Source: Solirubrobacteraceae bacterium (lineage in GTDB: Bacteria; Actinomycetota; Thermoleophilia; Solirubrobacterales; Solirubrobacteraceae). From it: a stretch of DNA of 37,189 nucleotides. The stretch lies in assembly GCA_030447505.1 (NCBI GenBank), contig JAUJOT010000011.1, positions 1 to 37,189 on the forward strand, written 5' to 3'. A model generated the notes under the pieces. The model saw only the letters and a program-made list of their open reading frames with translations. It had not been told where the DNA came from and did not search any database. The position numbers were made by a program, and so were the translations under genes. Within the stretch, counting starts at the first letter, position 1. Every line of letters begins with the position of its first letter. Positions 4,246 through 20,223 of the stretch are shown here, in pieces.

Positions 4246-5886
4246 ATGGCAACCACCTACCAGCCGACGACAGCGGACGAGTGGCGCGCCGCGTACGGCC
4301 TGCAGGCCGAGCGCGACGTCGCGTTCACGACGCTCAGCGGGACGCCCATCAAGGCGCTCTACACGGCCGAGGACGCACCCCGCGATCCCGGTCATCCGGG
4401 CGTCTATCCCTACACCCGCGGCGTCTACCCGTCGATGTATCGCGGCCGCCTCTGGACGATGCGCCAGTTCGCCGGCTTCGGCACGTCGGAGGAGACCAAC
4501 GAGCGCTTCCGCTACCTGCTCGCGCACGGCCAGGACGGTCTGAGCACCGCCTTCGACATGCCGAGCCTGATGGGCTACGACTCCGACCATCGGCTGAGCC
4601 TCGGGGAGGTCGGCCGCGAGGGCGTCGCCGTCGACACGCTCGACGACATGCGGACGCTCTTTCAGGGCATCGACCTCTCCGAGATCTCCGTCTCGATGAC
4701 GATCAACGCGCCCGCCGTCGTGATGCTCGCCTTCTACGTCGCCGCCGCCGAGCAGCGGGGGATCCCGGCCGAGCGCCTGCGCGGCACGATCCAGGCCGAC
4801 ATCCTCAAGGAGTACATCGCCCAGAAGGAGTGGTGCTTCCCCGTCGACCCGGCGATGCGCCTGTGCGGCGACATGATCGAGTGGTGCACGCACAACATGC
4901 CGAGCTGGCATCCGATCAGCGTGTCGGGCTACCACATCCGCGAGGCCGGCTCGACGGCCGCGCAGGAGCTCGCGTTCACGATCAAGGATGGCCTCACGTA
5001 CGTCGAGCAGGCCGTCGCGCGCGGCCTGGACGTCGACGACTTCGCGCCGCGCCTGAGCTTCTTCTTCAACGCCCAGATCGATTTCTTCGAGGAGATCGCG
5101 AAGTACCGCGCGGCGCGGCGGATCTGGGCGCGCGAGCTGCGCGAGCGCTTCGGCGCGACCGACCCGCGCTCCTGGCGGATGCGCTTCCACACGCAGACGG
5201 CCGGCGTCAGCCTCACTGCCCAGCAGCCGCTCAACAACATCGTCCGCACCGCGATCGAGGCGCTCGCGGGCGTGCTCGGCGGCACGCAGTCGCTGCACAC
5301 GAACTCCTACGACGAGGCGCTCGCGCTGCCGACCGAGCAGGCGGCGCGGATCGCGCTGCGCACGCAGCAGATCATCGCCCACGAGACCGGCGTGACGAAC
5401 ACGATCGACCCGCTCGGCGGGGCGTACTTCGTCGAGGCGCTGACCGATCAGCTCGAGCGCGAGGCCTACGACTACTTCGGCCGCATCGACGAGCTCGGCG
5501 GCATGGTCGAGGCGGTCAAGCAGAGCTTTCCCCAGCGCGAGATCGCCGACGCGGCGTTCGCGCTGCAGTGCGAGTACGACGAGCGCGAGCGGATTCTCGT
5601 CGGCGTCAACGAGCACGTCGACGCGGGCGACGAGGAGATCCCGATCCTGCGCATCGACCCGCAGCTCGAGCGCAAGCAGCGTGGCCGCCTGCAGGCCGTA
5701 CGTGCGCGGCGCGACGCGAGCGCCGTCGAGCAGGCCCTCGCAGCGCTGCGCGCCGATGCCGCGCGCGACGCCGCGAACCTCATGCCGGCGCTGCTGCGCT
5801 GCGCCCGCGCGGATGCCAGCGAGGGCGAGATCGTGCGCGCGCTGCAGGACGTGTTCGGCACGTACACCGAGACGCCGGTCTTCTGA
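4246..5886 (+). CDS. icmA: coenzyme B12-dependent acyl-CoA mutase large subunit, isobutyryl-CoA-mutase-like
   Basis: A 546-residue catalytic TIM-barrel subunit of the methylmalonyl-CoA mutase family, which carries out radical carbon-skeleton rearrangement of acyl-CoA. Family motifs include [15 protein letters not shown] (54-68), TMRQFAGFG (71-79), [13 protein letters not shown] (103-115), SMTINAP (150-156) and [12 protein letters not shown]. By spacing, Phe75 matches the methylmalonyl-CoA mutase Tyr89 and Gln193 matches Arg207, which binds the carboxylate. The Phe/Gln pair 118 residues apart is what isobutyryl-CoA mutase IcmA carries (Phe80/Gln198, from memory). It lacks the C-terminal B12 domain, which is encoded separately at 6754-7167. 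The exact substrate is inferred; a 2-hydroxyisobutyryl-CoA or other short-acyl mutase is the alternative. Confidence 0.88.
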
Positions 5887-5983: not shown

Positions 5984-6685
5984 ATCACGCGATCGATCCG
6001 AACACTGCTCCTCGGCCTGGGCATCCTGCTGGCCGCCGCGCTTGCCGCGCCCCTGACCGGCCTCGCGAGATCCAACGCGCAGCTCTGCCACTCGCCCGAG
6101 CCCGGTGTCAACTGTGGCCCCGGCAACAACCGCCAGCCACCCGGCGGCGGCGACAAGGTGCCCCACGACAACGGCCTGAACAGCAAGAAGGGCCAGCGTG
6201 CCACGCGTGTCTGGCCGAAGGTCAGCGGGATCCTCTGGCAGGTGGTCGATCCTTCGCGCGACGCCGGCAGGAAGCGCACGAAGCTCGGCGGTCCGCTCAA
6301 CGACGAGCTGCTCGGCCGTCACGGCAGCGACATCCTCGTCGGCGGCGGCGGCCACGACATCCTCTGGGGCGACTGGGATCCCGTCGCCAACAACACGAAG
6401 CAGCGCGACGTGCTGAGCGGCGGGCGCGGCAACGACTGGCTGTACCCCAGCCACGGACGCTCGATCGTCAAGGGCGGCCCGGGTGCGGACTACGTCTGGG
6501 CCTACTACGGCAAGGGCACGATCGACTGCGGGCCCGGCACCGACATGGCGCGCATCCGCACGAACGGCGCCTTCAAGACGAAGAACTGCGAGCAGATCAG
6601 GCACTTCTGCGCGCATGGCGAGAGCAACAAGGGCAACTGCCTCTCGCCGACCGGCAAGCCCGTCGCGGCGGCCCGGCTGCGCTAG
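5984..6685 (+). CDS. secreted RTX-like (haemolysin-type repeat) protein
   Basis: The open frame begins with a clear signal peptide (TRSIRTLLLGLGILLAAALA and onward, about residues 2-28), but no ATG, GTG or TTG precedes it after the in-frame stop at 5927. ATC 5984 is the proposed start; the first canonical start, GTG 6158, would remove the signal peptide. The mature part holds Asp/Gly repeats of the GGxGxDxL type (HGSDILVGGGGHDILWGD, LSGGRGNDWL, VKGGPGADYV), then DCGPGTD...NCEQI, a Cys pair typical of actinobacterial calcium-binding-repeat proteins. Calcium binding is known for the repeats; the role here is unknown. It lies between the two mutase subunit genes without obvious functional link. 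Confidence 0.75.
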   Translation: MTRSIRTLLLGLGILLAAALAAPLTGLARSNAQLCHSPEPGVNCGPGNNRQPPGGGDKVPHDNGLNSKKGQRATRVWPKVSGILWQVVDPSRDAGRKRTKLGGPLNDELLGRHGSDILVGGGGHDILWGDWDPVANNTKQRDVLSGGRGNDWLYPSHGRSIVKGGPGADYVWAYYGKGTIDCGPGTDMARIRTNGAFKTKNCEQIRHFCAHGESNKGNCLSPTGKPVAAARLR

Positions 6686-6753: not shown

Positions 6754-7167
6754 ATGACCGAGCCTGCATCCCAAGGCAAGAAGATCCGCGTGGTCGTCGC
6801 CAAGCCCGGCCTCGACGGACATGACCGCGGGGCGAAGATCATCGCGCGCGCCCTGCGCGACGCGGGCATGGAGGTCATCTACACGGGGCTGCACCAGACC
6901 CCGGAGCAGATCGTCGAGACGGTGATCCAGGAGGACGCCGACGCGGTCGGCCTCTCGATCCTCTCCGGTGCGCACATGACGCTCGTGCCGCGCATCGTCG
7001 AGCTGCTCGAGGAGCAGGGCATCGATGACGTCGTCGTCACCGTCGGCGGCACGATTCCCAGCGACGACATCCCCGAGCTCAAGCGCCTCGGCGTGGCCGA
7101 GGTCTTCACGCCGGGGTCGAGCACCGAGGCGATCATCGACTTCATCCGCGCCTCGGTCGCGGCGTAG
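6754..7167 (+). CDS. icmB: cobalamin-binding small subunit of acyl-CoA mutase
   Basis: A 137-residue B12-binding Rossmann domain. It shows the base-off/His-on signature DGHDRG at 21-26, with His23 as lower axial cobalt ligand, the SIL motif at 68-70, and the glycine pair GG at 98-99. Its size equals stand-alone mutase small subunits such as IcmB (about 136 residues). It should pair with the large subunit at 4246-5886, which lacks this domain. It starts at ATG 6754. About 870 bp containing an unrelated secreted protein separate the two subunits. The gene name follows the Phe/Gln signature of the partner and is less sure than the domain call. Confidence 0.9.
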
Positions 7168-10810: not shown

Positions 10811-11848
10811 TCAGGACGCGCCGGAACGGCGCACGCGGGCGGGCACGATGCGGTGCAGAAGCCCATCGCCCGAGCTCGTGACCCAGACCGCGCCGGCTCC
10901 GGTCGCGACCGCGGCCGGGTAGCCGCCGGTCGGGATCGGACGTCCGACCGGGACGCCGGCCTCGGCGTCGACGCGGCGCACCGCGGGCTCGCGCCTCGGC
11001 GTTCCGGGCAGCACGCTGCCGACGTCGGTCGACCAGACCGAGCCAAGGCCCGCCGCGAGGTCGATCGGCACGCCGCTCGGAAGCGGGACCGCCGCTTCGT
11101 CGACCTCGCCGGTCTGCGGGTCGATGCGTCGCAGCTCGACGTCGGTGTTTCGCTCGGAGTCGGTCGCAGCGACCCAGACGGCGCCCTCGCCGACGGCGAG
11201 CGCGAGGATCTGCGCGTCTGCGACGGGGATCGGCTCGCCGGTCGTCCTTCGCGTCCTCGCGTCGAGCCTGCTGACCGTGCCGTCCTGCGTGTTCGCGACC
11301 CAGACGCTGCCAAAGGCGACGGCGACGTCGGCGGGTGCGGTGCCCGTGCGTACCGGGCGTCCGCGCAGCGCACCGGTCCGCGGGTCGAGCGCTGAGACAG
11401 TGCCGTCGCGACGGCTGGTCACCCACACCGAGCCGGCGCCGACCGCGATGCCGCCGGGGTCCGCGACGCGCGCCCGGTCGACGAGCCGGCGGCGCGCCGC
11501 GTCCAGCCGGCTGACCGCGCCCGTGCCGCTCGCGACCCACAGCGCACCATCGCCGGCGGCGAGGGCGAGCGGCGCCTGCGCGCGGACCGGTCGCCCGCGC
11601 ACCGCGCCGCTGGCCGGGTCGACCTCGAGCAAGCGCCCACGGCGTCCGTCGGCCACCCAGACCGCGTCCTCGGTCACGACGATCGCGCCGGGCGCTCCTC
11701 CGAGATCCGTCGTGCGCACGGCCGGCGCCGCGCTGTCCAACGGCTCGCGCTCGCGCGGCTCGCGTCCGCCGCAGCCGGCGAGCACGAAGAGGGCCAGGAC
11801 GACGGCGCAGATCGGCGTGGCGGCGCGGCGCGGCTGTGACAGGGGCAT
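10811..11848 (-). CDS. seven-bladed beta-propeller lipoprotein
   Basis: A 345-residue exported lipoprotein. The N-terminus has a signal peptide with lipobox VLAGC, Cys26 being the lipidated residue. The body contains seven repeats built around VWV[A/T] or LWVAS followed by a turn and an RLD/EVD strand, as in YncE, NHL or Vgb-type propellers. The repeat count fits a closed seven-bladed propeller. There are no catalytic residues I can name. It is divergent from the DUF4331 gene with a 216-bp gap containing tandem repeats. It may be a binding scaffold at the cell surface. Annotations such as virginiamycin B lyase are often given to such repeats, but nothing here supports that activity. Confidence 0.82.
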   Translation of the reverse strand: MPLSQPRRAATPICAVVLALFVLAGCGGREPREREPLDSAAPAVRTTDLGGAPGAIVVTEDAVWVADGRRGRLLEVDPASGAVRGRPVRAQAPLALAAGDGALWVASGTGAVSRLDAARRRLVDRARVADPGGIAVGAGSVWVTSRRDGTVSALDPRTGALRGRPVRTGTAPADVAVAFGSVWVANTQDGTVSRLDARTRRTTGEPIPVADAQILALAVGEGAVWVAATDSERNTDVELRRIDPQTGEVDEAAVPLPSGVPIDLAAGLGSVWSTDVGSVLPGTPRREPAVRRVDAEAGVPVGRPIPTGGYPAAVATGAGAVWVTSSGDGLLHRIVPARVRRSGAS

Positions 11849-12011
11849 CGGGATGCTGTGCGCTCGCCGCGCGAGAGCGGATCAACGGTGAAACGCGACG
11901 GGGTCACACGCGACCGCGCCAAGTACGCCGTTCACGGGTGCTTCGTTTCGTCGGAAGTGATCTACTAGATGCCCGGGCGCGAAAAGAGGTCCGGAGCTGA
12001 CCACCTGCCGC

Positions 12012-12055
12012 CGGTCCGTCGATGCCCTTCTAGCGGTCCGTCGATCCCCTTCTAG
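12012..12055 (+). repeat. two 22-bp tandem repeats before the DUF4331 start
   Basis: Units 12012-12033 and 12034-12055 are identical except for one base (G to C at the 13th position). Each begins CGGTCCGTCGAT and ends CCTTCTAG. The second runs straight into the AGGAGA ribosome-binding site at 12054-12059 of the next gene. Confidence 0.85.
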
Positions 12056-12064
12056 GAGACGCAC

Positions 12065-13495
12065 ATGAGGAAGCTGTCCCTGAGCGCGCTTGGCGCGGCT
12101 CTCGTTGCCGCCGCGGTCGTCGTGCCGTTGAGCACGGGCTCGAGCCACCGCGAGGCACCGAACATCTCGCTCGACCCCTCGGCCGACAACACCGACGTGT
12201 ACGCGTTCGTGCCGAAGGACGCGCCGGACAAGGTGGCGCTGGTCGCCAACTGGTTCCCGAACTCGATCCCGGCCAACGGTCCGAACTTCTTCCGCTTCGA
12301 CGATCGGGCGCGCTACTACATCAACATCGACAACACCGGCGACGGCCGTCCGGACGTCCGGTTCCTGTTCAAGTTCGACACCGACCTGCGCAGCCCCGGC
12401 TCGTTTCTGTACTCCCTGCCGGGCGTGACCAGCGTCAACAACGACAAGCTGAACCTCTTCCAGCGCTACGACGTCTTCCGCGAGCGACTGCGCCGCGGGC
12501 GGGTCATCAACAGGACGCGCATCGGGCGCCAGCTTCCGGTCGCCCCGTCGAACGTCGGGCCCAAGACGTTCCCGGACTACGCGGCGCTGACCCGCCAGGC
12601 GATTCGCCGCCTGTCCGGCGGGCGGACCGTCTTCGCCGGCCAGCGCGACGATCCGTTCTTCGTCGATCTCGGCGCGACGTTCGACGCGCTGAACATCCGC
12701 AGGGGCACGGGCAACGAGGGCGCCGGCAAGGACGACTTCTCCGGGCTGTCGACGCAGTCGATCGTCCTGCGCGTGCCTCAGGCGCAGCTCACGCGTGATG
12801 GGCGAGAGGTCAGCGGCCCCTCGGCCCGCAACGCCGTGGTGGGCATCTGGTCATCCACGGAGCGGCGCAAGCTCGAGGTCACCAACGCCGACTTCGACCG
12901 CAACTCGAAGTCGCGCGGCAGCTTCGTGCAGGTCTCGCGCCTGGGCAACCCGCTCGTCAACGAGGTCATCATCCCGCTGGGCAAGAAGGATCTGTTCAAC
13001 CGCACCTCGCCGTCCGGTGACGGCAAGCGCTTCGGCGCCAACGTCGTCAAGCCCGAGCTCGCCGCGATCCTGAACGCCCTGTTCGAGGTCAACGCACCGG
13101 AGAACAACCGCACGGACATCGTCCGGGCGCTGCTCACCGGCCTCCCGGGCCTGACGCGGATCCGCCCGGGAGCGCCGCCGACCGACACGCTGAAGCTCAA
13201 CATGGGCGTGCCGGCGACCGAGAACCCGAACCGCTTCGGGTTGCTCGCGGGCGACAACCAGGGGTTCCCGAACGGCCGCCGGCTGATCGACGACGTCGTC
13301 GACATCGAATTGCAGGTGGTGGCCGGCTTCCTGAGGGGCAACAAGGTGCCGCTGGGCGACGGTGTCGACCAGAACGACAAGCCGTTCTCGGACCGCTTCC
13401 CCTATCTCGCCCCGCCGACCTCCGGCTTCGAGTCCAATCCGACCAACCGCACGGAGCCCGTGCACCCGCCGGTCCCTGCCGGCGGCGCTGGGTAG
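12065..13495 (+). CDS. secreted DUF4331 protein
   Basis: A 476-residue exported protein. The signal peptide spans about residues 1-25 (LSALGAALVAAAVVVPL). The mature part starts SSHREAPNISLDPSADNTDVYAFV, the hallmark of DUF4331, and continues with ANGPNFFRFDDRARYYINID. It starts at ATG 12065 with AGGAGA 5 nt upstream. The family function is unknown; in several actinobacteria it is found near TPR and NicO-type genes, as here. The HREAP segment just after the signal could bind metal, but this is inference. A strong hairpin follows the gene at 13512-13546, so most transcripts may end before the TPR gene. Confidence 0.9.
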   Translation: MRKLSLSALGAALVAAAVVVPLSTGSSHREAPNISLDPSADNTDVYAFVPKDAPDKVALVANWFPNSIPANGPNFFRFDDRARYYINIDNTGDGRPDVRFLFKFDTDLRSPGSFLYSLPGVTSVNNDKLNLFQRYDVFRERLRRGRVINRTRIGRQLPVAPSNVGPKTFPDYAALTRQAIRRLSGGRTVFAGQRDDPFFVDLGATFDALNIRRGTGNEGAGKDDFSGLSTQSIVLRVPQAQLTRDGREVSGPSARNAVVGIWSSTERRKLEVTNADFDRNSKSRGSFVQVSRLGNPLVNEVIIPLGKKDLFNRTSPSGDGKRFGANVVKPELAAILNALFEVNAPENNRTDIVRALLTGLPGLTRIRPGAPPTDTLKLNMGVPATENPNRFGLLAGDNQGFPNGRRLIDDVVDIELQVVAGFLRGNKVPLGDGVDQNDKPFSDRFPYLAPPTSGFESNPTNRTEPVHPPVPAGGAG

Positions 13496-13511
13496 CAGCC
13501 ATCGATCGACC

Positions 13512-13546
13512 GCAGGGAGGGAGCACGGCGCGCGCTCCCTCCCTGC
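13512..13546 (+). terminator. strong hairpin after the DUF4331 gene
   Basis: A 13-bp perfect stem, GCAGGGAGGGAGC (13512-13524) with GCTCCCTCCCTGC (13534-13546), surrounds a 9-nt loop. It starts 16 bp after the stop codon. There is no T tract, as is common for GC-rich actinobacterial terminators. Confidence 0.6.
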
Positions 13547-13608
13547 ACTGAACCGCCACGCGCTCGCCCGCGCACACCCCTGAGCACGCGACTGATCGAC
13601 GGTCCCCG

Positions 13609-14904
13609 TTGCGCCCTGCGCTCATCCTCCCGCTCCTCACCTTCGTCCTCGGCCTCGCCCTGCTCACGCTGCTGCAGCGCGGCGACGCGACGCGTGCCGC
13701 CCAGCCGACGGTCGAGACGAAGCCGCTCGCGCCGGACGCCTCGACCGATGAGCGCATCGCCGCACTCCAGGCGGGAGTGCGCAACGCGCGCCAGGGCAAG
13801 CGGCCGTTCGCCGCGCTCGGGCTCGCGTACCTGCAGAAGGTCCGCGAGACCGGCGACCCCGGCTTCTACAGCCGCGCCGAGAACGCGCTGCGCCGAGCGC
13901 TCGCCGCCGATGCCCGCGACGCCGCAGCCGTCACCGGGCTCGGAACGCTCGCACTCGCGCGCCACGACTTCGGCGCCGCGCTGCGCCTCGGCAGGCGGGC
14001 TCGACGCCTCCAGCCCGACGCGGTGGCCGCCTACCCGGTGCTCGTCGACGCCCTCGTCGAGCTCGGGCGCTACGACGACGCCGCCCGCGCGCTGCAGCAG
14101 TTCATCGACCGCAAGCCCGCGCTGCCGTCCTACGCCCGGGTCTCCTACTTCCGCGAGCTGCACGGCGACCTCGACGGAGCCGTCGAGGCGATGCGCCTCG
14201 CGGTGTCCGCGGCCGGCGGAACCGGCGAGGGGCTCGCCTCCGTCCAGGCGCTGCTCGGGAACCTCGAGTTCGCCCGCGGCCGTCTCGGCGCCGCCCGCCG
14301 CGCCCATCGCGCGGCGCTGAGGACGATGCCCGGGCACGCCGCCGCGAGCGCCGGGCTGGCACGCCTCGACGCCGCGGCCGGGCGCTTGGACCCGGCGATC
14401 CGCCGGCTGCGCGCCCTCGTCGACCGGCTGCCCCTGCCCGAGTACGTCGTGGCGCTCGGCGAGACCCAGCTCGCCGCCGGACGGCGCCGGTCGGCACGCG
14501 ACAGCTTCGACCTCGTCCGGGCGCAGCAGCGCCTGCTCGCCGGACAGGGTGTCAACACGGACGTCGAGCTGGCGATCTTCGAGGCCGATCACGGCGACGC
14601 GCAGCGCGCCGTCGCCCTCGCGCGCCGGGCCTGGCGGGCGGCGCCGAGCGTCCGCTCGGCGGACGCGCTCGGCTGGGCGCTGACGAGGGCCGGACGCGCC
14701 GCCGAGGGCGATCGCTTCGCGCGGCGCGCGCTGAAGCTCGGCTGGCGCGACCCGATCGTGCTCTATCACGCCGGCCTGAGCGCGCGTGCGGCCGGACGCG
14801 ACGGCGCCGCACGCAAGCTGCTGCGCCGCGCGCTCGAGCACAATCCGCGCTTCTCGGCGCTGCACGCGCCGCGCGCGCGCGCGGCGCTGGAGGCCCTGCG
14901 ATGA
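13609..14904 (+). CDS. membrane-anchored TPR-repeat protein
   Basis: A 431-residue protein starting with TTG 13609. A single hydrophobic helix at residues 3-20 (PALILPLLTFVLGLALLTLL) has no clear cleavage site and probably serves as a membrane anchor. From about residue 60 it is a run of helical Ala/Leu/Arg-rich repeats of TPR type, for example VTGLGTLALARHDFGAALRL and YPVLVDALVELGRYDDAARA. Its stop overlaps the NicO transporter start (ATGA), so the two are translationally coupled. It is likely a scaffold for extracytoplasmic partners such as the DUF4331 protein; no enzyme motif is seen. Confidence 0.85.
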   Translation: MRPALILPLLTFVLGLALLTLLQRGDATRAAQPTVETKPLAPDASTDERIAALQAGVRNARQGKRPFAALGLAYLQKVRETGDPGFYSRAENALRRALAADARDAAAVTGLGTLALARHDFGAALRLGRRARRLQPDAVAAYPVLVDALVELGRYDDAARALQQFIDRKPALPSYARVSYFRELHGDLDGAVEAMRLAVSAAGGTGEGLASVQALLGNLEFARGRLGAARRAHRAALRTMPGHAAASAGLARLDAAAGRLDPAIRRLRALVDRLPLPEYVVALGETQLAAGRRRSARDSFDLVRAQQRLLAGQGVNTDVELAIFEADHGDAQRAVALARRAWRAAPSVRSADALGWALTRAGRAAEGDRFARRALKLGWRDPIVLYHAGLSARAAGRDGAARKLLRRALEHNPRFSALHAPRARAALEALR

Positions 14905-16466
14905 GGGCGCTCCTGCGCACGCTCGCCCTGGCCGTCCTGGCCCTCGCCGTACTGGCGCCCGCCGCGGCCGCGCATCCGCTCGGCAACTTCACCGTCAATC
15001 ACGTCACCCAGGTGTCGGTTTCCGAGGACCGCGTCGACGTGCGCTACATCCTCGACGAGGCGGAGATCCCGACCTTCCAGCAGCGCCGGCTGAGCGACGC
15101 CGAGCTCGTCGAGCGCAAGCGAGCGGAGGTCCTGCGGGCCCTGCGGGTGACGGTCGACGGCCGCCGCGTCGCCCTACGACCCGTGGCGGTCAAGGGGCCG
15201 ACGCACCCCCAGGGCCAGGGCGGGCTGACGACGACGCGCCTGGAGCTGGTGATGACCGCTGCGGTCTCCGATCCTCGCCGCGTCGAGGTGCGCGACGAGA
15301 CGTTCGCGGACCGCGTCGGGTGGAAGGCGATCGTCGCCGCGCCCGGCGAGGCAACGGCGGTCCGCTCGAGCGTCGCATCGGGCGACCCGACGAACGGACT
15401 GCGTGCCTATCCGGAGGAGCTGCTCGAGAGCCCGCTGGACGTTCGCCGCGCGGTCCTCGACGTGCGGCCCGGTGACGGCACGCTCGTCGCGCCGCAGCAG
15501 CAGGGCGGCGAGGCGGTCACGACGCGCGGCGCGGAGAGCGACGGCTTTGCCGCCGTCTTCGAGGACGCCGCCGCCGGGCAGGGAGTCCTGCTGTTCCTGC
15601 TGCTGTCGGCGTTCGCGTGGGGGGCGCTGCACGCGCTGGCGCCAGGACACGGCAAGGCGATGGTCGCCGCCTACCTCGTCGGCACGCGCGGCACCGCGCG
15701 TCACGCGGTCGCCCTCGGCGCGACCGTCACGATCACCCACACGATCGGCGTCTTCGCGCTGGGCGTGGTGACGCTCGCCCTGTCGCAGTACCTCCTCCCG
15801 GAGGACCTCTACCCATGGCTGACGCTCGTCTCCGGACTGCTCGTCGTCGTCATCGGGGCCGGCGTCCTGCGCGCGCGGATCCGGTTCTTCCGCCGCACCA
15901 GGCCGCCGAGGCAGGGCGACGAGCACAGCCACCACGCGCACGCGCACCGCGACCACGACCACCACGACCGCGGCCACGATCACGACGACCACGGGCACGC
16001 CCACCACGGCCACGACCACGGCCACGGCGACGACGGCCACGATCACGGCCACGGCCACGGCCACGGCCACGGCCACGGCCACGGCCACGATCACGGCCAC
16101 GGCCACGGCCACGGCCACGGCCACGATCACGGCCACCAACACGTCCCCGACCGCCTGACGTGGCGCGGCCTGATCGGGATGGGCGCCGCCGCCGGACTGA
16201 TCCCGTGCCCGTCGGCGCTTGTCGTGCTGCTCGGCGCGATCGCTCAGCAGCAGGTCGCGCTCGGGCTGCTGCTGATCGTCGCCTTCAGCCTCGGCCTTGC
16301 GGCAACGCTGACCCTGCTCGGGCTGATCGTCGTGCGATCTCGCGGGCTGTCGGCGAGGCTGCGCGTTCCGGTCCGGGTGACCATGGCCCTGCCGGCCGTG
16401 TCCGCCGTGATCATCGTCGCCGCCGGCTGCCTGCTGACGCTCAGGGCCGTGCCGCAGATCATCTGA
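14901..16466 (+). CDS. NicO-type nickel/cobalt transporter with exported N-domain and His-rich loop
   Basis: A 521-residue protein. A signal peptide (1-24) is followed by HPLGNFTVNH at the mature N-terminus, a likely metal site. An extracytoplasmic domain of about 200 residues comes next. A membrane part follows with NicO/RcnA motifs HALAPGHGKAMVAAYLVGTR and ITHTIGVFALG. A loop at about residues 340-413 has some 35 histidines, mostly GHGHDH repeats, then two or three further helices starting RGLIGMGAAAGLIPCPSALV. The His loop is a probable Ni/Co/Zn buffer or sensor. Direction of transport, uptake or efflux, is not decided by sequence. The gene overlaps the TPR gene by 4 bases. Confidence 0.9.
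   Translation: MRALLRTLALAVLALAVLAPAAAAHPLGNFTVNHVTQVSVSEDRVDVRYILDEAEIPTFQQRRLSDAELVERKRAEVLRALRVTVDGRRVALRPVAVKGPTHPQGQGGLTTTRLELVMTAAVSDPRRVEVRDETFADRVGWKAIVAAPGEATAVRSSVASGDPTNGLRAYPEELLESPLDVRRAVLDVRPGDGTLVAPQQQGGEAVTTRGAESDGFAAVFEDAAAGQGVLLFLLLSAFAWGALHALAPGHGKAMVAAYLVGTRGTARHAVALGATVTITHTIGVFALGVVTLALSQYLLPEDLYPWLTLVSGLLVVVIGAGVLRARIRFFRRTRPPRQGDEHSHHAHAHRDHDHHDRGHDHDDHGHAHHGHDHGHGDDGHDHGHGHGHGHGHGHGHDHGHGHGHGHGHDHGHQHVPDRLTWRGLIGMGAAAGLIPCPSALVVLLGAIAQQQVALGLLLIVAFSLGLAATLTLLGLIVVRSRGLSARLRVPVRVTMALPAVSAVIIVAAGCLLTLRAVPQII
16035..16136 (+). repeat. GGCCAC hexanucleotide repeat coding for (Gly-His)n
   Basis: Two blocks of near-perfect GGCCAC units, broken by GATCAC, encode the Gly-His run of the NicO loop. 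Such in-frame hexamer repeats can expand or shrink by slippage without a frameshift. Confidence 0.85.
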
Positions 16467-16583
16467 CCGCCTCGCGGCTCGCCCCGGCGTAACCGGCGCC
16501 GACGCTCATTGCGATGACCGCGCCGTGCCGGCCCGTGCGGCGGCACCCGCAACTCCCGCGCCGCGCCGTTGTCATAAGAGCGC

Positions 16584-17333
16584 ATGGCTCGCTCGCTGCT
16601 GCTCGTCACCCTGATCGCCCTCGCCTCGGCGGCGCCCTCCGCGAGCGCGGAGCTGACGCAGGAGAGCGCGCCGCGGCTCAGAGCCACGCTCGAGTCCTGC
16701 ATCACGAGCCCGCTGCCGATCGAGCGCGTCGCCACCTTCGTCGGCTCGATGCCCGCCCGCGCGGGCGCGAAGCGGATGCGCATCCGCTTCGATCTCGAGC
16801 GGCGGCGTGCGGGGGAGCGGCACTGGCGGCGCATCCGCGCGCCCGGCTTCGGGACCTGGGAGCGGTCGGCGCCGAACGTCGCGGGGTTCGTCTTTCGCAA
16901 GCGCGTCAACGGACTGCCGGTACCGGCGAGCTACCGCGCGCGTGTGCGCTTCCGCTGGATCACGGCCGGTGGCACGATCGTGCGCCGCGCCCACGCGCGC
17001 ACCCCGGCCTGCACGCAGCCCGACCTGCGCCCGAACCTCGTTCCAGGCGTGCTGACGGCGATCCTCGACGCCCAGTCCGGCCTCGCCGTCTACGCGCTGA
17101 TCGTGCGCAACACCGGTCGCTCGACGGCGACCGCGTTCAGCGTGCGCGTGGGATCGGGCAGCGCCGAGGTGGCGTCGCTCGATCGGGACGAGCAGCGCGC
17201 GGTGACGGTCGTCGCGCCGGCCTGCAGTCCGGGAACGATCATCGCCGCGCGCGTCGACGCAGACCATCGCGTTGAGGAGTCCGAGGAGCGCGGCAACACA
17301 GCGCGCGCGCGCTGCCCGCTGCCGCTCGGATGA
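16584..17333 (+). CDS. secreted CARDB-like protein
   Basis: A 249-residue protein starting at ATG 16584. The signal peptide covers about residues 1-22 (LLLVTLIALASAAPSASA). The middle region is unrecognised and holds Cys39. The C-terminal 110 residues look like a CARDB-type immunoglobulin fold: PDLRPNLVPG, then VRNTGRSTATAFSVRV, and the ending RVDADHRVEESEERGNTAR. CARDB domains are surface adhesion or binding modules. It lies 117 bp after the transporter and may be transcribed alone. The role in this cluster is not shown. Confidence 0.72.
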   Translation: MARSLLLVTLIALASAAPSASAELTQESAPRLRATLESCITSPLPIERVATFVGSMPARAGAKRMRIRFDLERRRAGERHWRRIRAPGFGTWERSAPNVAGFVFRKRVNGLPVPASYRARVRFRWITAGGTIVRRAHARTPACTQPDLRPNLVPGVLTAILDAQSGLAVYALIVRNTGRSTATAFSVRVGSGSAEVASLDRDEQRAVTVVAPACSPGTIIAARVDADHRVEESEERGNTARARCPLPLG

Positions 17334-18138: not shown

Positions 18139-19115
18139 GCGCGGTTAGGCGCAGTAGTTGACGAGTGCGCGGCTGGGGCGCCCGAGTTGGTGGTTGAGCG
18201 TGATCGCGGCGGCGAGGCAGACGAAGCGTTGAAGGACGCGTTCGCGCAAGCCTTTGAGCGTGCGAGCGCCGTGGCGTTCGAGGGTGAGGATGTCCTTGCA
18301 GGTCCAGAAGATGCTTTCGATGCGCTGGCGGATCGGGGCGAGGTGCGGTCCTTGGCCGGGCTCGTCGCGGCGCCGCGGCCTGACGATCGTGGCGTCCAGT
18401 TCGCTGACGGCGATCGCGAACGCGCGGCCGGCGTAGCCCTTGTCGCCGAGCAGCGTCTCGCCGCCCTGGCGGTCGCAGCGCGCCAGCAACGCGAGCGCGA
18501 CGTCGCGCTCGTCGATCTTCGGAGACGTGAGCTCAAGCGCGCGCGGGGTGCCGTCGGGCGCGAACATCGCATGCAGCCGAAAACCCCAGAAATAGCGGCT
18601 GTGGCTGGCGCACCAGCCGTAATCGGCGGCATCGCCCAGCTGCGAGCGCCGGACGGTCTCGCGGCTCTGCGCGCACGCAACCGGGGTGCTGTCGACCAGC
18701 AGCAGATCGTCCTGCGAGCCGGGGCTTTGGCTGGCGAAGATCCCCAGCAGCCATTCCAGCGTGTCAGCCAGCCGGCGGCGACGCTTGAAGTACCCCGACT
18801 GCTGGGGCAACTGCGGAAACAGATGCCTGAGCTGCTTACCGGCGACGGCGAGAAAGCGCCGGTCCGACGGGATGCCCATGATCGCCTGCGCGACGCACAA
18901 CGTGACGACCTCCGCGTCTGTGACTCTTCGCGCCGCGTTCGCTTGCCGGTCAGGCAGGAGATCGTCGGCGGTGCAGAACACCGTCGTGAGCAGCAGGTCG
19001 AGGTCGGCGTCCATCGAGGCCCCCACAGGTCGGCGATGCGTGTTAGCACCGCCGACTTCGACCCTGCTGCCGCCAAATCCTCGACAAACACGGGCTCTCC
19101 CGTGGAATCAACCAT
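18127..19115 (-). mobile_element. IS982-family insertion sequence, complete
   Basis: A 989-bp element with 12-bp perfect inverted repeats ATGGTTGATTCC at both ends and CTAG on either side, read as a 4-bp target duplication. If CTAG belongs to the element it spans 18123-19119. It contains one intact transposase on the minus strand, and nothing suggests decay. It sits between a small membrane-protein gene and prfA, which would have been divergent genes about 60 bp apart before insertion. Confidence 0.9.
18145..19026 (-). CDS. IS982-family DDE transposase
   Basis: A 293-residue transposase starting with GTG 19026 (ATG 19014 is an alternative). IS982-type features are GDAADYGWCASHSRYFWGFR (131-150), DERDVALALLAR, LLGDKGYAGR and the ending LNHQLGRPSRALVNYCA. 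The likely catalytic triad is Asp112 (LLLVDSTPV), Asp195 (LLGDKGYAG) and Glu237 (PIRQRIESIFWTCKD). The reading frame is unbroken, so the element may still be active. The gene stops 18 bp inside the left end. Confidence 0.94.
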   Translation of the reverse strand: MGASMDADLDLLLTTVFCTADDLLPDRQANAARRVTDAEVVTLCVAQAIMGIPSDRRFLAVAGKQLRHLFPQLPQQSGYFKRRRRLADTLEWLLGIFASQSPGSQDDLLLVDSTPVACAQSRETVRRSQLGDAADYGWCASHSRYFWGFRLHAMFAPDGTPRALELTSPKIDERDVALALLARCDRQGGETLLGDKGYAGRAFAIAVSELDATIVRPRRRDEPGQGPHLAPIRQRIESIFWTCKDILTLERHGARTLKGLRERVLQRFVCLAAAITLNHQLGRPSRALVNYCA

Positions 19116-19176: not shown

Positions 19177-20223
19177 GTGATCGAGCAACTCGTCGAGCAG
19201 ATCGAGGCGCGCTTTGCCGACGCGCAGCGCGAGATGTCCGACCCCGAGATCTTCGGGGATCGCCAGCGCGCGGCCGCGGCCGGGCGCAACTACCGTCAGC
19301 TCGAAGCCGCGGCGAAGCTCGCGGAGGCCTGGCGGCGTGCGGTCGACGACGAGGCCGGCGCGCGCGAGCTGCTCGAGGAGGGCGAGGACCCCGAGGTACG
19401 CGAGATGCTCGCTGCCGCGCGCGCGGAGATCGAGCGCATCGAGCAGCAGATCCGCCTGGCGCTCGTCGAGCGCGACCCCAACGACGACAAGAACGTCATC
19501 GTCGAGATCCGTGCCGGCGCCGGCGGCGACGAGGCGAGCCTCTGGGCAGCCGACCTGTTTCGGATGCTCGCCAAGTACGCCGAGCGGCGCGGCCTGAGCG
19601 TGGAGCTGCTGGAGACCGGCGAGGGCGCCTTCACGTTCGCGATCAAGGGCGATGGCGCGTATTCGATCTTCAAGTTCGAGGGCGGCACCCATCGCGTGCA
19701 GCGCGTCCCCGCGACCGAGTCGCAGGGCCGCGTCCACACGTCCACCGCGACCGTCGCGGTGCTTCCCGAGGCCGACGACGTCGACATCGAGATCGACCAG
19801 AACGACCTGCAGATCGACGTCTACCGCTCCTCGGGGCCGGGCGGGCAGTCGGTCAACACGACCGACTCGGCGGTGCGGATCACGCACAAGCCGAGCGGGA
19901 TCGTCGTCTCGATGCAGGACGAGAAGTCCCAGCTTCAGAACCGTGAGCGGGCGATGCGGGTGCTGCGCGCGCGCCTGTACGACCAGGCGCTCGCCGAGCA
20001 GCAGGCCGAGCTCGCTGCCGACCGCCGCTCACAGGTCGGAAGCGGCGAGCGCGCCGAGAAGATCCGCACCTACAACTACGGCGAGCGGCGGGTCAAGGAC
20101 CACCGCATCAACCTGCTCGTGCACAACCTCGACGAGGTCCTCGAGGGTGCGCTCGACGAGTTCACGGCGGCGCTGCAGGCCGACGAGAAGCGCCGTGTCC
20201 TGGAGCTTCAGGCGACGGCGTAG
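19177..20223 (+). CDS. prfA: peptide chain release factor 1
   Basis: A 348-residue class I release factor that reads UAA and UAG and triggers peptide release. The PAT tripeptide at 178-180 ([14 protein letters not shown]) is the RF1 codon-recognition motif. The GGQ motif at 222-224 lies in [21 protein letters not shown] and acts at the ribosomal peptidyl-transferase centre. It starts with GTG 19177. prmC, which methylates the Gln of GGQ, follows 21 bp downstream. An insertion sequence has separated it from the rpmE side. Confidence 0.97.

Follow-up and report, generated by a model that had tools for sequence, protein, structure and literature searches.

DUF4331, a membrane-anchored TPR protein and an anglerase-like NicO permease as a candidate metal-trafficking module

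We analyzed a 37,189-nt stretch of DNA (the window; JAUJOT010000011.1, contig C2 in the 3.84 Mb draft genome of a Solirubrobacteraceae actinobacterium) in which a gene for an exported DUF4331 protein is followed by genes for a tetratricopeptide-repeat (TPR) protein and a permease of the NicO family. These three genes, and only these, form a conserved unit, and we consider it probable that their products constitute one extracytoplasmic transition-metal trafficking module that works as a membrane-tethered relay. We read a trafficking module of this kind as undescribed so far.

A conserved unit of three genes

The features of the unit in the window are as follows.

12065-13495, plus strand: DUF4331 gene, exported product, core member (PF14224, E = 2e-132)
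12140-12148, plus strand: Ser-Ser-His codons at the predicted mature N-terminus of DUF4331 (X-X-His, of the amino-terminal Cu/Ni-binding, ATCUN, type)
13609-14904, plus strand: TPR-repeat protein with an N-terminal membrane anchor, core member (TTG start, several TPR Pfam models)
14901-16466, plus strand: NicO/RcnA-type permease with an exported N-domain, core member (PF03824, E = 8e-18)
14973-15572, plus strand: anglerase-like exported N-domain of the NicO protein, predicted to start at His1 (HPLGNF)
15579-16466, plus strand: RcnA-like transmembrane domain of the NicO protein (HALAPGHGK, THT and IPCP motifs; RcnA alignment)
15921-16142, plus strand: His-rich loop between NicO transmembrane segments (median 21 His; six or more in 83 of 87 homologues)

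The stop codon of the TPR gene and the start codon of the NicO gene share 4 bp (ATGA, 14901-14904), in keeping with the translational coupling claimed for this pair in the initial annotation.

To delimit the unit, 396 Actinomycetota genomes were searched with the DUF4331 profile, which gave 68 positive genomes, and 60 loci were fetched. Neighbors were counted as hits of profile hidden Markov models of the window families on six-frame translations, not on called genes, and genes in the fetched loci were called with a codon-usage script made for this work. The locus test set comprised full-length genes for exported DUF4331 proteins that had 4.8 kb or more of sequence downstream, 37 in all; a TPR gene lay within 3 kb in 32 of these and a NicO gene within 5.5 kb in 24. 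Neither gene accompanied the full-length leaderless DUF4331 genes (0/3 loci), so that the module was found only with exported members.

The association is tighter still when viewed from the permease. The NicO N-domain together with the first membrane segments was searched in the same 396 genomes, and the genomes with the N-domain form were counted by hand, giving 40 genomes from about 16 families. DUF4331 was present in 39 of these 40 genomes vs 29 of the 356 others (Fisher p = 3.5e-34, uncorrected for kinship), and in the sole genome without it (G017) the NicO match lies at a contig edge. NicO/RcnA-like matches without the N-domain occurred mostly in genomes lacking DUF4331. Joint occurrence of DUF4331 with this TPR family and the N-domain form of NicO, proposed earlier as a check on a metal function, is therefore very strong, and it spans phyla.

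Outside the Actinomycetota, annotated plasmids of Marinobacter, Pseudoalteromonas, Comamonadaceae and Lichenicola carry the gene order DUF4331, hypothetical or TPR protein, and HupE/UreJ permease. By Pfam, the permease in these plasmid modules is HupE_UreJ_2 (PF13795), and the middle protein has TPR repeats in Pseudoalteromonas and Comamonadaceae and none in Lichenicola. A HupE/UreJ_2 permease thus stands in for NicO in Proteobacteria and Acidobacteria, and that the same position can be occupied by one Ni-type permease family or the other argues for a common substrate. NicO is retained in Nostoc, where a divergent DUF4331 occurs with TPR and NicO genes, and Chloroflexi loci have DUF4331 with TPR, in one case with NicO too. 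The module HupE proteins gave no match to the PDB in a single-sequence search. Eighty genome-contig loci were picked partly by the pattern [AGM]SSHREAP; these were used for neighbors and modeling and excluded from the evidence on SSH conservation given below.

The predicted X-X-His N-terminus of DUF4331

The window protein matches PF14224 over the full length of the model (1-421 of 421) with 442.9 bits against a cut-off of 27. Its AlphaFold2 model (pLDDT, the predicted local distance difference test, 86.7; pTM, the predicted template modeling score, 0.89) has an Ig/CBM-like beta-sandwich fold. Neither a sequence search of the PDB, which gave no relative, nor a fold search, which gave no clear match, placed the protein near a known structure; the best fold match, the starch-binding Sas6 (Z 8.1), stood among antibodies, and we rejected it as a relative, reading it as a common beta-sandwich arrangement instead. 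No function or mention of DUF4331 was found in the open-access literature searched.

Judged from the sequence, signal peptidase would cleave the DUF4331 protein between STG and SSHREAP and the NicO protein between AAA and HPLGNFTVNH. The earlier remark that both proteins would thereby present His-bearing N-termini outside the cell is borne out by these leaders, and the His is invariant or nearly so among homologues of both. In 32 diverse DUF4331 members SHREA is invariant, nearly always preceded by Ser, and it holds the sole invariant His. For the N-terminus survey we used members found by profile rather than by motif and settled their classes by reading (L078 and L222, and likewise L065 and L225, are the same places). 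Exported members have Ala, Gly or Ser followed by Ser or Ala, any residue and His at the predicted cleavage site, with Ala or Gly at position -1 nearly throughout; the resulting N-termini would read SSH, ASH, ADH, ANH or SDH. Among the leaderless members, 21 of 22 have the start codon (ATG, GTG or TTG) followed by Ser, Ala or Pro, any residue and His, as in MSSH, MSHH, MSNH, MSDH and MADH; the exception is MSDY in L216.

A small second residue normally permits removal of the start Met, so that the signal-peptide and the start-Met routes would converge on one kind of N-terminus, with a free amine and His as the third residue. This is the definition of the ATCUN motif, which binds Cu and Ni, and the fit of the predicted mature DUF4331 N-terminus to it is the strongest new observation of this analysis. 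The predicted end resembles the ATCUN N-termini of serum albumin, histatins and A-beta 4-x in having a free N-terminus and His at position 3. Whereas the well-studied cases are mostly animal proteins or peptides, the DUF4331 motif appears to be family-wide in bacteria and, unlike them, would be reached through processing by both signal peptidase and methionine aminopeptidase.

Some DUF4331 proteins (e.g. those of L035 and L038) have a C-terminal membrane segment with a basic tail, and the DUF4331 and TPR genes of one locus are separated by a sortase gene (L042:6781-7548). These features hint at surface anchoring of some members.

An anglerase-like domain on a NicO permease

His1 of the NicO N-domain (HPLG-F) is invariant in 87 module NicO proteins, most of which have A-x-A before it. 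The N-domain was modeled by AlphaFold with pLDDT 87.2, and a Foldseek search of the PDB with this model returned a single match below 1e-3, 9GCE, a Cu-bound Ang-1 domain from a HupE/UreJ-2 protein (E = 1.1e-5, prob 1.00). VIA comparison of the two gave Z 8.9 and a root-mean-square deviation of 3.9 over 137 residues, and the next VIA matches were the Zn-binding periplasmic proteins ZrgA and PA4063. Both of these are linked to Zn uptake. A PDB sequence search with the N-domain gave no relative.

Domains of the Ang-1 type have been named anglerases, their binding of Cu and Ni was measured, and a role in metal capture and uptake was proposed (PMC12537917). Like Ang-1 and Ang-2, the N-domain is predicted to carry His1 directly after the signal peptide, to be exported and to precede a Ni-type permease, and its model shows their beta-sandwich fold, in which helices lie between strands 2 and 3. 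The second metal ligand is Asn41 in Ang-1 and Asp33 in Ang-2 (PMC12537917). In the module NicO alignment D28 and E31 of the N-domain are invariant; the model was made without metal. The differences are that Ang-1 and Ang-2 are fused to HupE/UreJ_2 whereas the window N-domain is fused to a NicO/RcnA-type permease (PF03824), that its sequence identity to 9GCE is just ~13-15%, and that DUF4331 and TPR proteins, frequent partners of the window-type permease, are not named in PMC12537917. Neither NicO nor TPR proteins came up in a text search of that paper, and it was the only one to use the term anglerase in the open-access literature searched. On the modeled fold, we classify the NicO N-domain as anglerase-like and do not file it as Ang-1 or Ang-2.

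The membrane part of the protein belongs to the NicO family (65.2 bits vs a PF03824 cut-off of 27.7). The window protein also matches PF13386 and has no PF13795 match, so it is not fused to a HupE/UreJ_2 permease. Over 249 positions, the His-rich loop included, the membrane part is 32% identical to E. coli RcnA (E = 6e-24), whereas the whole protein scores 133.3 bits against NF007454, the NCBIfam model of RcnA-type nickel/cobalt efflux, under the cut-off of 195. By sequence the permease is related to RcnA, and we do not call it a member of the RcnA family. His220, PGHGK and His256-Thr257 (mature numbering) are invariant or nearly so in the 87 module NicO proteins. One module NicO is directly followed by a second, weak NicO-like gene (L071:11963-12463).

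E. coli RcnA is annotated as a Ni/Co exporter, the RcnA-RcnB system pairs an exporter with a periplasmic protein, and in-to-out is the direction listed for NicO-family transport. The RcnA membrane domain shares the His-rich loop and the PGH-K and IPCP motifs with the window NicO; unlike the latter, it is without an exported N-domain. RcnB is small (~112 residues), whereas DUF4331 is a large beta-sandwich protein.

Regulation and nickel context

A gene pair for an extracytoplasmic function (ECF) sigma factor and an RskA-type anti-sigma factor recurs beside the module in about 10 Actinomycetota loci and lies directly upstream of it in Pseudoalteromonas; pairs next to DUF4331 in these groups are found at L175:5588-6804, L185:3418-4622 and L057:10583-11901. 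This suggests control of the module by an envelope signal. In several related actinobacteria a gene for a Rex-type redox repressor lies just downstream of the module (L052, L057, L061, L045, L086 and L076), and glutaredoxin and hemA/hemC genes are also just downstream in several of these Rex-bearing loci.

Ni superoxide dismutase was found in 29 of the 40 genomes with N-domain NicO vs 78 of the 356 others (p = 2.6e-10), and urease in 14 of 40 vs 55 of 356 (p = 0.004). Neither p value is corrected for kinship, which could explain part of the enrichment. The window's own genome has no match to either enzyme; it has four [NiFe]-hydrogenase-like large-subunit loci on contigs C3, C10 and C13, two of them ~4 kb apart on C3, from which the host probably uses nickel.

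Proposed mechanism and alternatives

In the scheme that we infer, rather than compute, for cleavage, metal binding, scaffolding, complex formation, expression and transport direction, the NicO protein would be a two-part permease made of an RcnA-like membrane channel and an outer-face domain of anglerase fold, with His1 at its N-terminus as the metal ligand. In the exported DUF4331, an ATCUN-type site formed by the free N-terminus and His3 would hold the same metal, the membrane-anchored TPR protein may be the scaffold that holds DUF4331 and the permease together, and the metal would be exchanged between the permease His1 and the DUF4331 N-terminus. The metal would most likely be Ni or Cu, possibly Co. 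The earlier idea that these proteins capture a metal outside the cell and move it is partly upheld: a Ni/Co-type permease, an N-domain predicted to share the fold of a proven Cu/Ni-binding domain, and the conserved His residues are consistent with it.

Several observations weigh against a metal-trafficking module. NicO is absent within 5.5 kb in 13 of the 37 exported DUF4331 loci, and HupE_UreJ_2 lies within a few kb in just 6 of 26 Acidobacteria genomes with DUF4331. The recurrent regulator, the ECF/RskA-type pair, is not metal-specific, and a search of the window and five more loci turned up neither a riboswitch nor any other Rfam element near the module. Confidence in the DUF4331 model is low over its first ten residues, which makes the ligand geometry unreadable. 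The LysE superfamily, which contains NicO, carries other substrates too. Finally, in Rhodobacterales the DUF4331 genes adjoin type II secretion genes and lack a nearby permease gene.

These Rhodobacterales loci form a setting of their own. On four plasmids (L174, L176, L183 and L184) DUF4331 sits beside a type II secretion cluster with neither HupE nor NicO near, and in three of the four a gene for an A24 prepilin peptidase is also beside it. DUF4331 may there be a secreted substrate of the adjoining type II system.

The cues to direction conflict, the channel resembling an exporter and the N-domain resembling domains tied to uptake. In the alternative that fares best, possible although on balance doubtful, DUF4331 is secreted, picks up Ni, Cu or Co that is scarce outside the cell and passes it via the anglerase-like domain to an importing permease. 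The capture and import proposed for anglerase-HupE/UreJ_2 proteins (PMC12537917), the kinship in structure with ZrgA and PA4063, the replacement of NicO by HupE-type permeases and the Ni enzymes of the host all fit such uptake, but the membrane domain is closest to the exporter RcnA, NicO proteins are listed as in-to-out, and no recurrent TonB receptor or ABC importer was seen near the modules in the fetched loci. Somewhat less likely, the module is a loading machine in which the permease exports Ni, Co or Cu and the His1 domain takes the ion and delivers it to the X-X-His end of DUF4331, itself a secreted metalloprotein. Export and loading would best explain, on the few loci at hand, why leaderless DUF4331, which could be loaded in the cytoplasm, occurs without the module.

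Two further alternatives seem to us unlikely, and about equally so. One is detoxification, an efflux of Ni, Co or Cu like that of RcnA-RcnB, in which DUF4331 and the N-domain would buffer metal outside the cell; the RcnA-type channel with its His-rich loop and the pairing of exporter and periplasmic protein in RcnA-RcnB speak for it, but in the fetched loci the module is accompanied by ECF/RskA pairs and by no recurrent metal-sensing repressor, and the strict pairing of permease and DUF4331 (39/40) exceeds what a buffer needs. The other holds that the three genes are linked but that NicO moves a different solute, the N-terminal His serving the fold or a partner contact. The breadth of the LysE superfamily and the Ig/CBM-like sandwich of DUF4331, with a starch-binding protein as its best, weak PDB match, are compatible with a non-metal role, whereas the strict position-3 His reached by two processing routes, the anglerase fold with His1 and the conserved Ni/Co-channel His residues point to metal.

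Neighboring genes of the window

The initial annotation described a five-gene envelope metal system, adding the two genes that flank the unit.

10811-11848, minus strand: propeller lipoprotein, a neighbor outside the core (lipobox LAGC; Vgb_lyase-like, E = 6.7e-12)
16584-17333, plus strand: CARDB-domain exported protein, a neighbor outside the core (PF07705, E = 9.7e-6)

Pfam and profile matches confirm the positions and families given for the five genes, all of which encode exported or membrane proteins. DUF4331, TPR, NicO and CARDB are consecutive on the plus strand; the propeller gene is divergent from DUF4331, so that the five are not one transcription unit. Of the five-gene system the DUF4331-TPR-NicO part stands; we dropped the remainder, because the propeller gene clusters only with genes in two other loci (L074, of the same family, and L039) and homologues of CARDB do not recur in the other 60 loci. 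That all five feed cobalt to the nearby B12-dependent mutase is very improbable and was likewise dropped: physical proximity and the envelope location of the five products favor it and the mutase is real (large domain at 4246-5886), but it lies 5 kb off, neither it nor CARDB was seen near other modules in the fetched loci, the search of the window and five more loci gave no cobalamin riboswitch, and the missing conservation already contradicts it.

The methylmalonyl-CoA mutase large domain and the B12-binding domain (6754-7167) are separate genes, and between them lies a gene for a small protein with RTX Ca-binding repeats (6158-6685). A DDE transposase gene (18145-19026), a mobile element close to the module, lies between a small membrane protein gene and a release-factor-like gene at 19177.

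Implications

The NicO N-domain extends anglerase-like domains, as judged from its model, from HupE/UreJ_2 to NicO permeases. The DUF4331 N-termini suggest that members of a single family acquire one metal motif through two different processing enzymes, which would be unusual. The family is present in several phyla and in roughly a sixth of the sampled Actinomycetota genomes, and its link to the module offers it a testable function.

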